From Novipirellula artificiosorum (GTDB taxonomy: Bacteria > Planctomycetota > Planctomycetia > Pirellulales > Pirellulaceae), in assembly GCF_007860135.1 (NCBI RefSeq), contig NZ_SJPV01000001.1, positions 1,361,299 to 1,425,298 on the forward strand: a DNA stretch of 64,000 bases, written 5' to 3'. The notes under the pieces were generated by a model that had not been told where the DNA came from, ran no database searches, and saw nothing but the letters and a program-made list of their open reading frames with translations. Below are positions 51,842-56,555 of this stretch, one piece after another. A program made the position numbers and the translations under genes. The stretch's first letter is position 1, and each line of letters starts with the position of its first letter.

Positions 51842-51891
51842 GTGGATCTTGTCAAAGATCCCCGTGTCATAGGATCTTTAACAAGATCCAC
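51842..51891. repeat. Palindrome with 20-bp arms between pstB and phoU
   Basis: GTGGATCTTG...AAGATCC at 51842-51861 and its reverse complement at 51872-51891 match at 19 of 20 positions, with a 10-base loop. It lies in the 193-bp spacer between pstB and phoU. There is no T-tract, so it is more likely a dispersed element or an mRNA-processing hairpin than a terminator. Confidence 0.8.
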
Positions 51892-51999
51892 GACCCTGAA
51901 ATTTGATGCTGACGGTCCGCTAGGAACGTATTTCAAAGTCGAAGCTTGAACCTCCCCTACCCATCGCGCTGAAGCGCAAACTCCAACACTTCCTCTGCA

Positions 52000-52686
52000 A
52001 TGTCAAAACACCTTCAACGTGGCCTCGATGCGTTACGGCAATCACTGGTCGATCAATTCGGAAAAGTCGAGCAAATGATCCAATTGGCGGTTCGTGCGCT
52101 GGTGGAACGTCGTACGGACTTGGCTGATCGCGTGATCGCCAGCGACGAGGAGGTCGACCATACGGAAATCCTTATTGAAGAAGAATGCCTCAAGCTGCTG
52201 GCTCTCTACCAACCGGTCGCCAGCGATCTGAGGCGTGTGATCACGGTGATTAAAGTTAACAGCGACTTGGAACGGATGGCCGATTTGGCGTGCAATATTG
52301 CGGAACGCGCACGAGCCATCGATCTGCATCCGTTGTTTAAGGCACCCGAAGAGTTGACCGAGATGGTCGCGATTGCCAACGAGATGGTCCGAAATGCACT
52401 TGACGCCTTTGTGGAAGACGATCCGGCGAAGGCAGCCGACGTCATTCGTACCGATGCCATGGTGGACACACTTAACCGAATCGTCATTGACCAACTGCAC
52501 GAGACGATGGTTCATGATCCTGAGAGCATTGAACCCGCGGTGAATTGTTTTAGTGCTTCACGGCATATTGAACGGATTGCCGATTTAGCCGAGAGCATTT
52601 CCGAGGATGTCATCTATCTGGTCGAAGGCGAAATCATCCGCCACAAGCACGGCGTCTTTTTCGATTCCCATCAACGTCGTTCTTGA
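52000..52686 (+). CDS. phoU: Phosphate transport system regulator PhoU
   Basis: 228 residues, made of two PhoU helical repeats. Each carries a metal-binding E/D-rich motif: DLERMADLACNIAERA in the first and SRHIERIADLAESISEDVIY in the second. PhoU connects the Pst transporter to the PhoR/PhoB two-component system, signalling phosphate excess. The start at 52000 lacks a clear ribosome-binding site. It is separated from pstB by a palindrome but lies in the same direction and is probably in the same regulon. No phoR or phoB is in the window. The last residues are basic and polar. It is convergent with the DUF790 gene, 35 bp apart. Confidence 0.93.
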   Translation: MSKHLQRGLDALRQSLVDQFGKVEQMIQLAVRALVERRTDLADRVIASDEEVDHTEILIEEECLKLLALYQPVASDLRRVITVIKVNSDLERMADLACNIAERARAIDLHPLFKAPEELTEMVAIANEMVRNALDAFVEDDPAKAADVIRTDAMVDTLNRIVIDQLHETMVHDPESIEPAVNCFSASRHIERIADLAESISEDVIYLVEGEIIRHKHGVFFDSHQRRS

Positions 52687-52721
52687 TGCTCTCGCCGACG
52701 TCCCCTGCGACGGCTTGGCTG

Positions 52722-53927
52722 TCAGAGGGTCTTCAAGTACTTCAACACCCTTGCGGGTGACAGTTTCGTGTTGTACTCGATTCGTGGCATCCCCAGCTCG
52801 GGAATCGATTCTGCTACCGAATGGGAAATCGCCAGCAGGATGCGACCGGAATCACGAAACCGATTCAGCGTCCTGCCCTTCTCCTGCAAATATTCAGGAG
52901 TCCAAAACCCCACGATTTCCAACAAGACATCGCCATGAATCGGATGGCGCAGCGTAAAGTCGGGCATAAAGACGGATTGGCCCTGATGCAGAATCGTTGC
53001 CTCACGCAGCAGCACCCATCCAGCGGTCTCAGCCTGCTGCCATGCTTCGTAGAACGACTTTTCTAAATCGCTGTCGAAATCGTCGTTTCGGACCTCGCTT
53101 CGCAACCCATCGCGAGGGGATAAACGCAGGGCATAGCGTTGCTGCATCGGCCCCAGCACGGTCGCTTGCATTCTCCAACCTTCGGCTGACAACAAGCCAG
53201 GCAGGAATTTGGCCAATGCAACTCCATAGCGACGCGTGCTTCGTACCACCGATGCAGGTCCATCGAAACGGAGTCGATAGCCGGTGCCATGCGGTTCGAT
53301 GCTGTGCATCAAACGAGCAAGTTTGGCGTATCGCATGATTTGCTTGAAGTCTCGCTCAGCCCAAACGGTCATGGACAACGCTCCGTACAACGCTGCCTGC
53401 GTCTGTGCGACGTTGTAGCAGCGAAGGAGTCCGCCGGCGTCCAATTCCTTTGGCGGTTGGATCAGCGGGTGGAATTCGATCACATCGTTGAACAACACCG
53501 ATTCGATCTCGTCCCATTCCCTATTGAGTTCTTTGGCAATTTGTTGCTTGACTTCCGATTCGGCATGATCGAAAAGCTGATCCGTCGCTTGCACCAATGG
53601 ATGCTTTGTAGCGGCCAGCAAGAAGACTCGTTCCCTTAACTTGGCTGCTTTGGATGCCGTGTCCTTGCGGTACTCGCTTGCGTCGTCAAGCAGTTTGCAG
53701 AACGCCGCAATACGACGAGTTGAACAATCGTCGGTGTTTTGCAAAATCAGCCGAATACTTTTGTGCAATGTTCTACGTGGCTGCCCAACGCCTTGGCGAT
53801 AGGCTGCCAACATCTGTTGAGCGAGCGGCAGGTAATGTGCGTGCGTCTTTCGAGTCAGCCGATCGGGATGGACTCGTTGGTTTTGAAAGTCGAAATGGAG
53901 AATCGATTGTTCTTTCGTCAACATCAT
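52722..53927 (-). CDS. DUF790 (Bax1-like) predicted nuclease
   Basis: 401 residues. DUF790 is the family of archaeal Bax1, a partner of the XPB helicase that acts as a structure-specific nuclease. An N-terminal helical region leads to a conserved core (about 140-280, FNDVIEFHPL and AQTQAALYGALSM) and a C-terminal PD-(D/E)XK-like domain: SFYEAWQQAE (291-300), MPDF with D323, LLEIVGFWTPEYL with E337. These are the acidic residues expected of the nuclease fold. It starts in the stop codon of the XPB-like helicase gene (4-bp overlap), so the two are surely translated together. They would act on DNA, probably in repair. The pair is mainly archaeal; here it is in a bacterium. Confidence 0.82.
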   Translation of the reverse strand: MMLTKEQSILHFDFQNQRVHPDRLTRKTHAHYLPLAQQMLAAYRQGVGQPRRTLHKSIRLILQNTDDCSTRRIAAFCKLLDDASEYRKDTASKAAKLRERVFLLAATKHPLVQATDQLFDHAESEVKQQIAKELNREWDEIESVLFNDVIEFHPLIQPPKELDAGGLLRCYNVAQTQAALYGALSMTVWAERDFKQIMRYAKLARLMHSIEPHGTGYRLRFDGPASVVRSTRRYGVALAKFLPGLLSAEGWRMQATVLGPMQQRYALRLSPRDGLRSEVRNDDFDSDLEKSFYEAWQQAETAGWVLLREATILHQGQSVFMPDFTLRHPIHGDVLLEIVGFWTPEYLQEKGRTLNRFRDSGRILLAISHSVAESIPELGMPRIEYNTKLSPARVLKYLKTL

Positions 53928-55324
53928 TTTTTCCGGAAAGCGTCACTGCGTCGTCGGTCCCGCGAACGGATTTCGTCGCGAGTCCCCGAGGTGACGATCT
54001 CGTAGAAACAGGCACGGCCGAAACGATTCTTCCTCAGGACACGACCGAGTCGTTGCAAAGCTTGTCGTGTTCCGCTTCCCCCGCCCACGACGATGGCTAC
54101 ATTCACTTCGGGCAAGTCGACGCCTTCATCGAGCACACGGTTCGCTACGATCACAGGGTAACGACCTTCACGAAAACCCGCCAGGATTTCTTTCCGTTCG
54201 CGTTTGCGACAATGGCTTAGCAGGCAGGGAACCAAGAACCGTAGCGAAACATCACGCGCCATGGCGTTGGAACCGCAAAACACGATCACCGGTTCTCCGG
54301 CATGTAGCCGAAACAAATCTTCAATCAGACGAAGCTTGTCGGTTGCCCGGTCTTCGATCGATCGCTTGGCATGGAACGCCAACATGGCCGCCCGAGCCTT
54401 GGGGTCACTGCCGCTGTCACGGCACAGCGTTTGCCAATCGTAGCCAGGGTCGTCGACCCGCCGTTCAGCGATAAAGTTTGCTACCGTTCTCCCAAGCATC
54501 TTGTAACGCTCGCGTTCTTCCTCCGACAGGTGCACCGACATTCGCACGATGTCGTAGTGAGCCAATGTCTTGCCCCGCGCCGACTCGATCGCTTGAGTGT
54601 AAACTCGCGGTCCGATCAATTCGTCCAAAAGCACTTCCATTCCGTCACGTCGCTGTGGTGTCGCCGTCAATCCAAGCCGAAAGGGGGCGGCACTCATTCG
54701 GGCAGCATCTTGCCGGACCGAACCGGGCAAATGGTGGCATTCGTCAAACACAACAAGTTGGAATCGGTTGCCGATTCTCGGCATATGGATCGACGCGCTG
54801 TCGTACGTGGTCACGCTGATCGGGCTGACGCGATGAACTCCGTCGCCAATGATTCCGGCGTCAATCCCGGTGGCGGCCAAAATCCGATCATGCCATTGGT
54901 ACATCAAATCACGCACGGGCGACACCACCAAGACACTGCCGCCGAGTCGAGCGATCACGTGGAGTGCAACCTCGGTTTTCCCCGTCCCCGTGGGCATCAC
55001 GACGACGCCGCGACGAGTGGCGAACCAAGCGTTGACGGCGTCGGCTTGATCGCGACGAAGCGAGTGCAGGTTCTGCCTCGGAAATACGACCGGCTTCCAA
55101 TCTGCAACGTCGTCGATCCAAGATGCCGCTAAATGCAAAGAAAACCGCTTGGCGACCTCACCGTAGTGAATCGCGTCGGTCCGCCAACCCTTTGACCGTG
55201 GGTCGCTCACCCAGATATTCGGTTCCCACAATCGCTTGAGTAACGACTCGGAAACGCCGGAAAGGGTCAGCGTTCCCTGATCAAATGCCAATCGCACCGA
55301 GTTGGCGAAAGCAGAATGGGACAT
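53924..55324 (-). CDS. XPB-like DEAD/DEAH helicase
   Basis: 466 residues. After an N-terminal domain of about 85 residues come the helicase motifs: Walker A VVVMPTGTGKTEVAL (K116), DECHH (motif II, about 194-198), LGLTATPQRRDG (III), VIVANRVLDEGVDLPEVNVAI (V) and QALQRLGRVLRKNRFG (VI). The LTATPxRxDG and VLDEGVDxP signatures are those of the XPB/Rad25 group of superfamily 2. In eukaryotes and archaea XPB opens DNA for excision repair or transcription. A DUF790 nuclease gene follows with a 4-bp overlap. AAGG five bases before the ATG is a plausible ribosome-binding site. Cytosolic. Confidence 0.85.
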   Translation of the reverse strand: MSHSAFANSVRLAFDQGTLTLSGVSESLLKRLWEPNIWVSDPRSKGWRTDAIHYGEVAKRFSLHLAASWIDDVADWKPVVFPRQNLHSLRRDQADAVNAWFATRRGVVVMPTGTGKTEVALHVIARLGGSVLVVSPVRDLMYQWHDRILAATGIDAGIIGDGVHRVSPISVTTYDSASIHMPRIGNRFQLVVFDECHHLPGSVRQDAARMSAAPFRLGLTATPQRRDGMEVLLDELIGPRVYTQAIESARGKTLAHYDIVRMSVHLSEEERERYKMLGRTVANFIAERRVDDPGYDWQTLCRDSGSDPKARAAMLAFHAKRSIEDRATDKLRLIEDLFRLHAGEPVIVFCGSNAMARDVSLRFLVPCLLSHCRKRERKEILAGFREGRYPVIVANRVLDEGVDLPEVNVAIVVGGGSGTRQALQRLGRVLRKNRFGRACFYEIVTSGTRDEIRSRDRRRSDAFRKK

Positions 55325-55454
55325 CGTGCCTTGGCGACGAGCCTAAATGGAGGGGATTGGTGTACCGGAGCGATGCCGTATCATAGACGGCACGCTCACG
55401 CGATCCAAGCTTTGTCACAAATACAGAAGTCCACTTTTTACGGAAATAGAAGAG

Positions 55455-56555
55455 ATGTCACACCTTACCAACACCGAATCGGTAGTCGCCTCGCGGTATT
55501 CGGCGGCCGCCGAGGCGGTGGAACCGGCGCTTTGCTGTCCGGTCGATTATGATGCCCAGTACTTGAAAGTGATCCCGCAAGAAGTCATCGACCGAGATTA
55601 CGGTTGTGGCGACCCGTCGAAGTACGTTCGTAAGGGTGAAACTGTCTTGGATTTGGGGAGTGGCGGGGGCAAAATCTGCTTCATTGCGGCTCAAGTCGTT
55701 GGCGAATCTGGGCGTGTGATCGGCGTGGACATGAACGACAACATGCTCGCACTCGCTCGCGCTAGCCAAGGGTCCGTTGCCAAGCAGATTGGCTATGACA
55801 ATGTCACGTTCCTTAAAGGCCGTATTCAGGACATGACGATTGACCGCGACCGAGTCGATGCCTACCTCAAGCAGCATCCGGTCAGCGATGAAGCCTCGCT
55901 TCGAACCCTCGAAGCGTTCCTCGCAAGCTTGCGCCACGAAGCACCGATGATTCCAGAGGAATCGGTCGATGTGGTTGTCAGCAACTGCGTTCTAAACTTG
56001 GTCGATCCGGCTGAAAAAGCAGTGCTATTTGAAGAGATTCACCGCGTCCTGCGGGTCGGAGGGCGAGCCGTGATCAGTGACATCGTTTGCGACCAAGAAG
56101 TTCCAATGCATTTGCAACAAGACCCACAGATGTGGAGCGGCTGTATTTCAGGCGCGTTCCGTGATACCGATTTCGTCAACGCGTTTGTCGAAGCCGGTTT
56201 CTATGGTGTGGAAATGGTGGCGTTGCAACAAGAGCCCTGGCAAGTTGTCGAAGAGATCGAGTTCCGTTCGGCAACCGTGATTGCCTACAAGGGGGAAGTG
56301 CCCTTGGAAACGGACGAAGCTAAGAATCACACGGTGATCTATCGTGGCCCGTTCGCGGCGGTGCGAGATGAGTTTGGTGAAGAATTCTGGCGAGCGGATC
56401 CAACGGCGGTCAACGAAGCGACTTTTCGCAGGATCAACGAAGATCCTTACCGCGATCAATTCATTCGGATCGAAGCCGATGGTAAGAAACGCATCACGCG
56501 GACGCCGGTACTGCCCGTCGCCGATGCGTGCTGTTCCTCCGGTGAATGCTGCTGA
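55455..56555 (+). CDS. arsM: ArsM-like SAM-dependent methyltransferase
   Basis: 366 residues from the ATG at 55455 (AGAAGAG just upstream); the open frame starts at 55347 but its first residues are not family-like. The SAM motif VLDLGSGGGKICFIAA is at about 64-79. The arsenite-binding cysteine pattern of ArsM is present: C27-C28 (LCCPVDYD), C51 (DYGCGDP), C178 (SNCVLNL) and C230 (SGCISGAF). A block of about 45 residues (RVDAYLKQHPVSDEASLR) sits before C178, longer than in most ArsM. The tail ends DACCSSGECC, a likely metal-binding end. It would methylate arsenite to mono- and dimethyl species. No arsR or efflux gene is adjacent, so another thiol-metal substrate is possible. Confidence 0.72.
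   Translation: MSHLTNTESVVASRYSAAAEAVEPALCCPVDYDAQYLKVIPQEVIDRDYGCGDPSKYVRKGETVLDLGSGGGKICFIAAQVVGESGRVIGVDMNDNMLALARASQGSVAKQIGYDNVTFLKGRIQDMTIDRDRVDAYLKQHPVSDEASLRTLEAFLASLRHEAPMIPEESVDVVVSNCVLNLVDPAEKAVLFEEIHRVLRVGGRAVISDIVCDQEVPMHLQQDPQMWSGCISGAFRDTDFVNAFVEAGFYGVEMVALQQEPWQVVEEIEFRSATVIAYKGEVPLETDEAKNHTVIYRGPFAAVRDEFGEEFWRADPTAVNEATFRRINEDPYRDQFIRIEADGKKRITRTPVLPVADACCSSGECC

Follow-up and report, generated by a model that had tools for sequence, protein, structure and literature searches.

The archaeal complex of the XPB helicase and the Bax1 nuclease is structurally well described, yet the reported archaeal deletions of its genes do little or nothing. Bax1 belongs to DUF790, which the relevant section of a 2005 article presents as a PD-(D/E)XK family found almost only in archaea and cyanobacteria, usually beside SSL2 helicases (PMC1189080). 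According to a passage of a 2012 paper, no complex of XPB with Bax1 had by then been identified in bacteria (PMC3353954). The pertinent part of a 2026 review mentions Bax1 with regard to archaea and describes XPB function, archaeal and bacterial alike, as elusive (PMC13024598). We found no study on XPB–Bax1 from planctomycetes or Deinococcus in the open-access papers searched. The current work describes such a pair in the planctomycete Novipirellula artificiosorum. It is encoded in a stretch of 64,000 nucleotides (contig NZ_SJPV01000001.1, positions 1,361,299 to 1,425,298), which we call the window; all coordinates below are counted from its first letter. The kind of pair is known already. What is added here is a bacterial member with a short Bax1 and with unusually clear evidence of genetic coupling.

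Both genes of the pair, and thus all their features given below, lie on the minus strand. The upstream gene (53924..55324) encodes an XPB2-type superfamily 2 (SF2) helicase of 466 amino acids (aa), identified by its open reading frame (ORF), its solved-structure match and its fold. The downstream gene, bax1 (52722..53927), encodes a Bax1/DUF790 nuclease of 401 aa, identified by a full-length PF05626 match, a profile comparison and its fold. By the ORF coordinates, the end of the XPB gene and the start of bax1 share 4 bp (53924..53927), exactly where an initial annotation of the window had placed a helicase-then-nuclease overlap.

The helicase matches the Pfam domains ResIII, Helicase_C and ERCC3_RAD25_C. 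A match to the damage-recognition domain (DRD, PF18458) scores 24.3 bits, just below the cut-off of 26, and the fold alignment starts at residue 8. The closest solved relative by sequence is Sulfurisphaera XPBII (6p4f_A, E 2.8e-90, 306 bits). The predicted model, with a mean predicted local distance difference test score (pLDDT) of 86.7, aligns over 428 residues (Z 40.2, 2.5 A) with 6p4f_C, the XPB chain of the XPB–Bax1–forked-DNA structure. The motifs DECHH, LTATPQRRDG and VLDEGVDLP, on which the initial annotation had relied, all occur in the translation, and profile matches together with a 28-row alignment indicate that the SF2 helicase motifs are intact. In these 28 rows, M110, P111, T112, G113, G115, K116 and T117 of MPTGTGKT (residues 110-117, 54974..54997), which we take to be the Walker A motif, are invariant and T114 is nearly so; D194, E195 and H197 of the DECH box (residues 194-197, 54734..54745) are invariant as well. 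A RED-type motif, R225-R226-D227 (54644..54652), is aligned to R205-D206-D207 of Sulfurisphaera XPB. The thumb (ThM, approximately residues 266-325, 54350..54529) is aligned over the ThM of the same protein and forms helices 268-291, 297-303 and 308-325 in the model. Within it, W297 (54434-54436) is aligned with F278, the thumb wedge of Sulfurisphaera XPB according to the part of the structural paper that deals with it (PMC7672443). Tryptophan occupies this column in 32/32 rows of the window's clade.

Several other helicase families were considered and rejected. A mycobacterial-type XPB (NF045503) is ruled out by a score of 162.5 bits against a cut-off of 610. A phosphorothioate restriction helicase is ruled out too: PbeA scores 160.6 bits and dnd_restrict_1 125.2 bits (below its cut-off of 600), archaeal XPB reaches the 306 bits given above, and the neighbouring genes are phoU and an ArsM-like gene. 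An ordinary restriction or RecQ-like helicase is excluded by the scores, archaeal XPB being nearer, so that the helicase does not fall among the type III restriction or RecQ-like enzymes that the initial annotation had named as the alternative. By sequence and model, it is an XPB of the archaeal, Bax1-binding type.

The second protein matches DUF790 over the whole profile (PF05626, positions 1-387 of 387, 281.3 bits with a cut-off of 28.8, E 1.4e-83), and so it lies within the family to which it had been assigned. Five solved sequences match its profile and all are archaeal Bax1 (best 1.7e-70); one of these, titled Bax1 of Pyrococcus furiosus, carries the depositors' label of a translation factor. 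The scores of 151 and 136.6 bits are below the cut-offs of both NCBIfam Bax1 equivalog models (500); we read these models as narrow because they bear names that refer to the Bax1 of Archaeoglobus and of Sulfurisphaera. The predicted model (mean pLDDT 89.2) aligns with Sulfurisphaera Bax1 (6p4w_B) over 360 residues (Z 25.5, 5.0 A), and its first non-Bax1 structure match has a Z of 8.4. The N-terminal domain (approximately residues 1-162, 53442..53927), which binds XPB in the archaeal complex, the central domain (184-276, 53100..53378) and the PD-(D/E)XK nuclease domain (285-394, 52746..53075) are present in one predicted fold; their approximate boundaries were mapped from Archaeoglobus Bax1. 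The partner is thus a full-length DUF790/Bax1 nuclease. The structural comparison with archaeal XPB2 and Bax1 that the initial annotation had called for has been made for both proteins. Sequence and predicted models lead to a single crystallised complex, Sulfurisphaera XPB–Bax1, whose two subunits are the best solved relatives of the window's proteins.

The predicted catalytic residues of Bax1, identified by alignment, are E289 (53061-53063), D323 (52959-52961) and E337 (52917-52919). D323 and E337, already pointed out in the initial annotation, are aligned with D305 and E318 of Archaeoglobus Bax1 and are invariant in 69/69 rows. The third acidic residue, E289, was not named there; it is invariant in 35/35 rows of the window's clade, and a glutamate is wanting at this column in 17/34 rows outside the clade. 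A planctomycete Bax1 lineage of 17 rows (L013, L014, L017-L020, L022-L024, L026-L028, L036-L040) has no glutamate at the E289 column; many of its rows have one just before this column, and the D and E of the other motifs are kept.

The C-terminal tail of the window's Bax1 is short. It has 64 residues past E337, compared with 150 past E318 in the Archaeoglobus protein (468 aa), and the length from the catalytic E on is 61-100 in the window's clade (median 69). The window's Bax1 therefore seems to lack the C-terminal dimerisation domain. A short tail is not unique: the Deinococcus copies have 71-87 residues, most haloarchaeal copies are also shorter than that of Archaeoglobus, and the solved Pyrococcus Bax1 chain, which may be incomplete, has 375 aa.

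The pairing of the two genes is not a matter of chance. We collected 131 loci, of which four were duplicates. Among the remaining 127, 11 were set aside because Bax1 was broken or too little sequence preceded it. The other 116 were usable: their Bax1 is longer than 340 aa and is preceded by 1350 bp or more. An XPB ORF lies directly upstream on the same strand in 98/116 of these loci. The overlap is exactly 35 bp in 42 of the 98 and 14 bp in 18. In the other 18 usable loci, XPB was found 398-1205 bp upstream (5 loci) or was not found within the available stretch (13 loci).

The coupling is even clearer from the occurrence of the two genes across genomes. DUF790 was found in 51/343 Planctomycetota genomes, the window's included, and XPB of the window's type in 52/343; we take the two surveys to cover the same 343 genomes from their equal size and the equal handles where these are listed. 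Both genes are present in 50 genomes and neither in 290, with only Bax1 in one and only XPB in two (Fisher's exact p 1.5e-56, a guide only because the genomes are related). Both XPB-only cases are at contig ends where Bax1 would run off (by coordinates in G248; the contig of G309 has 3209 bp), and the genome with Bax1 only, G181, is 59% complete. In 30 selected genomes, some of them among the 343, XPB was present in 14/15 genomes with Bax1 (the miss is G181) and in 0/15 without it. Six genomes (G011, G085, G148, G110, G130 and G166) retain both genes at separate places, 0.85 Mb from each other in G166 and otherwise on different contigs. This points to function, rather than linkage alone, as the bond between XPB and Bax1. 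In G025 the two genes are both broken by stop codons. Two pairs each, on different contigs, were observed in G207 and G235.

The histories of the two proteins agree. The Bax1 tree was built from 65 chosen loci, the window and three solved proteins; the XPB tree comprised, besides the window and one solved protein, the 58/65 loci that also contain an XPB longer than 400 aa. The correlation between the trees is 0.87 for the 59 shared rows and 0.91 for the 29 clade rows, and 0/2000 permutations were as high in each case. The ratio of nonsynonymous to synonymous substitution rates (dN/dS) is 0.05-0.15 for both genes in the three closest relative pairs, none of which includes the window; thus xpb and bax1 of close relatives are under purifying selection. 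For the window and G015, whose synonymous differences are almost saturated, the ratios are 0.12 and 0.15. XPB and Bax1 are evolutionarily coupled in Planctomycetota, and co-occurrence, adjacency and tree congruence bear out the coupled pair that the initial annotation had described from a single locus. That the two genes co-occur almost without exception is evidence from genetics, independent of any biochemistry, that a planctomycete XPB of this type is not kept without Bax1. Because they are almost always together in related bacteria, the two proteins are probably one repair machine.

The analysis establishes that both proteins belong to these families and have their folds, that the catalytic residues are conserved, that the genes co-occur almost strictly, that the trees agree and that relatives are under purifying selection. 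We consider it probable that XPB and Bax1 form a helicase–nuclease complex working on branched or bubbled DNA, in accessory repair beside the Uvr proteins. By analogy with the archaeal complex, the window's proteins would associate, open DNA and incise it. XPB2 would hydrolyse ATP on duplex DNA at a junction and its thumb would part the strands, with the aromatic W297 as a wedge. Bax1 would dock by its N-terminal domain onto the thumb and the second helicase domain, and its PD-(D/E)XK site (E289, D323 and E337) would cut one strand near the junction. The gene overlap probably balances subunit amounts. From the genomic context we infer a role in the repair of bulky lesions or stalled forks. UvrB and UvrC are found in the host, as in 8/8 genomes tested; the host UvrC match spans one TAG near the profile end, and its open frame is 484 aa, like those of the others. 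Since the host keeps UvrB and UvrC, the pair is held to be accessory.

A number of observations weigh against this complex or its role in repair. The RED-type motif of XPB has the outer residues of RED and an arginine in the middle. The third catalytic residue of Archaeoglobus Bax1 is given as E275 in the relevant part of its description (PMC7293015); in our alignment E275 corresponds to K290, a variable site, and the invariant residue is the neighbouring E289. The same source proposes a second, N-terminal nuclease site (D133 and E135) for Archaeoglobus Bax1 (PMC7293015). This site is half kept in the window, with the invariant D148 at D133 and I150 at E135; we do not take it as family-defining because it was shown for Archaeoglobus Bax1 and is not kept in most other rows. 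Additionally, the N-terminal activity of Archaeoglobus and Thermoplasma Bax1 is blocked by XPB, as stated in the parts of two papers on these proteins (PMC7293015, PMC7672443). The genetic reports, in the sections concerned, describe no observed phenotype for xpb1, xpb2 or bax1 deletion in Sulfolobus islandicus (PMC4471258) and marginal damage sensitivity after xpb loss in Thermococcus (PMC7690668). We found no experiments on a bacterial XPB–Bax1 copy in the open-access papers searched. The patchy presence of the pair together with the host UvrB and UvrC implies that it is not needed for ordinary excision repair. Finally, few neighbours recur, and most of these have no connection with DNA repair (88 loci; 94/218 neighbour ORFs).

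It is possible, though we would not favour it, that the pair is a replication-fork or recombination enzyme that remodels and cuts stalled forks and takes no part in excision repair. The archaeal complex was crystallised on forked DNA (PMC7672443, in its structural part), and UvrB and UvrC are present in all the genomes tested. RecQ followed by SNF2 stands beside the pair in Phycisphaerae; RecQ, however, occurs in only 8/88 loci, and small bubbles, which the archaeal enzyme binds and cuts, are among its substrates too, as the corresponding sections report (PMC7293015, PMC7672443). Excision repair and fork repair are not separable from sequence. Bacterial copies are valuable in this respect: their hosts have Uvr proteins, so that double mutants can distinguish fork repair from a second excision pathway.

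The RecQ neighbours were located in flanks of varying length. Seven are downstream on the same strand and one is a partial gene on the other strand. The gaps are 19-66 bp in L118, L120 and L131, 611-1772 bp in L139, L110 and L107, and 117 bp in L106 (a fragment). SNF2 follows RecQ in L110, L118 and L139, with gaps of 66 and 39 bp in L118 (1762-9106). XPB–Bax1–RecQ–SNF2 is thus a possible four-gene repair operon in loci of the Phycisphaerae/Sedimentisphaerales type. On plasmid P1 of Deinococcus gobiensis (L142:1501-5260), the gene directly upstream of XPB encodes a spore photoproduct lyase and ends at a distance of 54 bp. We would go further only speculatively, with a scheme that we ourselves hold rather doubtful. 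Planctomycete XPB–Bax1 would be a stand-alone, UvrABC-independent lesion or fork machine, inherited, moved and lost as a unit. Its Bax1 would have no self-dimerising tail and so could not mask its own nuclease site before XPB docks. In Phycisphaerae it would have grown into the four-gene operon and would be the bacterial equivalent of a repair complex with several helicases.

An anti-phage or selfish module that attacks foreign DNA would explain the patchiness of the pair and its movement between sites. The sites vary within the genus, one congener (G002) has the site without the pair, and plasmids carry the pair in Deinococcus and haloarchaea. Related SF2 helicases act in phosphorothioate restriction (the PbeA and dnd_restrict_1 matches above), genes for type I restriction specificity and a DNA methylase lie near one Deinococcus copy, and a "selfish character" is left open in the DUF790 section of the 2005 paper (PMC1189080). 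Strong MADS-type matches (mad2, mad3 and mad6, to 5.5e-67) were also obtained among the neighbours of at least one locus, in 1-2 of 94 proteins each, counts to which no background set corresponds. Yet Bax1 itself matched no defence model at E 0.01, and in a PADLOC scan of the 94 neighbour proteins no family, among the 25 of 130 matched families listed, was found in more than two, several of these being plain helicases. One scan with a single protein revealed no viral relatives, and in a paper on enterobacterial phages (PMC8590004) Bax1 is named solely among the references. RecQ and SNF2 as neighbours fit repair better. We regard a module of this kind as unlikely; the RecQ/SNF2 and photoproduct lyase neighbours and the few defence models nearby make a repair role the one that we hold most likely.

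The nearest solved relatives of both proteins are archaeal crystal structures, and a recent horizontal gain from an archaeon might be supposed. The relatives analysed are the best 80 of 387, a sample outside which distant bacteria, cyanobacteria included, lie. The window's Bax1 is sister to a congener's copy (support 99/95), near those of Rhodopirellula maiorica and R. solitaria. It is placed deep in a 35-row clade, which has 100/100 support and whose stem measures 1.52 changes per column. Thirty of these rows are Planctomycetota and five are metagenome-assembled genomes (MAGs) with other labels; such organism labels (Nealsonbacteria, Acidobacteria, Verrucomicrobia and others) may be binning errors. 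The clade has a long stem and is not nested in archaea, so that the transfer offered as one option in the initial annotation, if understood as a recent archaeal one, is highly improbable. In the unrooted tree, 17 other planctomycete Bax1 rows and four more are outside the clade, with Deinococcus and archaea between. A single planctomycete clade of DUF790, for which the initial annotation had proposed a test, is not supported: it is present in 0% of 200 bootstrap trees, the planctomycete rows need three changes, and the approximately unbiased (AU) test gives a modest p of 0.028 against it. The group for this test was chosen before the careful tree and after a quick one; it has 56 rows including the five other-phylum MAG rows, all in the window's clade. 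To judge from these sequences, planctomycete Bax1 comprises several old lineages, and the window's copy belongs to a deep, mostly planctomycete clade. Equally, there is very little chance that the pair is a decaying relic without function in this genome: both genes are broken by stop codons in a relative (G025:C1:593991-596432, L051), but the window's genes are open and of full length with the catalytic residues kept, and those of relatives are under purifying selection.

The pair is patchy, being present in 11/60 relatives, the own genome included. In congener G002, with the same pst context, phoU and the arsM-like gene are adjacent with approximately 300 bp of other sequence between them and no pair; the unmatched stretch of the window covers approximately 52687..55453 (no strand assigned), as defined by comparison of the loci. 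In congener G001 three separate contigs carry the pair, phoU and the best match to arsM. A gain at the window's site and a loss in G002 fit the sequence alike. A transposon-style insertion was considered and rejected, as neither direct repeats at the flanks nor terminal inverted repeats were conspicuous.

On one side the pair is adjoined by a pstS-pstC-pstA-pstB-phoU run on the plus strand, ending at 52686, with phoU convergent with the pair; on the other side an ArsM-like methyltransferase gene is divergent. The ArsM-like ORF (55347-56555) scores 338.8 bits with NF040538, below the cut-off of 500. Its start is probably set too early, the true one being likely at about 55454, because the congener match begins at residue 36. 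Membership of the pair in a pst or arsenic operon is ruled out by these convergent and divergent neighbours and by flanks that differ among relatives. The pst genes do adjoin the pair, as was first noticed, but the link looks incidental, since its flanks vary even within the genus. Scans for promoters and terminators gave matches no more frequent than in shuffled sequences. A 26-bp palindrome (52726-52751, arms 88% complementary) covers the last bax1 codons between the convergent bax1 and phoU and is possibly their shared terminator. Between pstB and phoU there is a hairpin (51842-51892, DNA fold z -6.4). Its arm is dispersed in the genome, with 14 matches including both here and 0 in the backward control, and is also found in G001; the hairpin is a REP-like (repetitive extragenic palindromic) element.

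The window's pair can be set against four described systems. With the mycobacterial-type XPB (NF045503) it shares the XPB helicase core, and its helicase is far below the cut-off of that family. Among the Deinococcus plasmid pairs annotated as DEAD/DEAH helicase and DUF790, the helicase gene is directly upstream on the same strand in 11/11 records, with an overlap of 1-14 bp in 10 and a distance of 50 bp, as annotated, in one; Deinococcus Bax1 has approximately 30% identity to that of the window and forms a separate lineage. The gene association has been noted before, in an article of 2005 whose authors are reportedly Kosinski and colleagues. Its COG3372–COG1061 (DUF790–SSL2) neighbours show the same association as the window's pair, whereas planctomycetes are unmentioned in its DUF790 section and the function is only predicted there (PMC1189080). 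Thus the initial description of an archaeal-style pair in a bacterium is right as to the archaeal type of XPB and Bax1, but the pair is less unusual than it implied, given the 11 Deinococcus plasmids and the cyanobacterial DUF790 proteins in print since 2005. The fourth system is archaeal XPB2–Bax1 of Sulfurisphaera tokodaii (6p4f, 6p4w and 6p4o) and Archaeoglobus fulgidus (6p66). The window's pair resembles it in both families, in near-full-length folds (Z 40.2 and 25.5), in the catalytic D and E, and in a thumb with an aromatic wedge. It differs in the shorter Bax1 tail, the half-lost N-terminal site, RRD in place of RED, and a bacterial host that has UvrB and UvrC.

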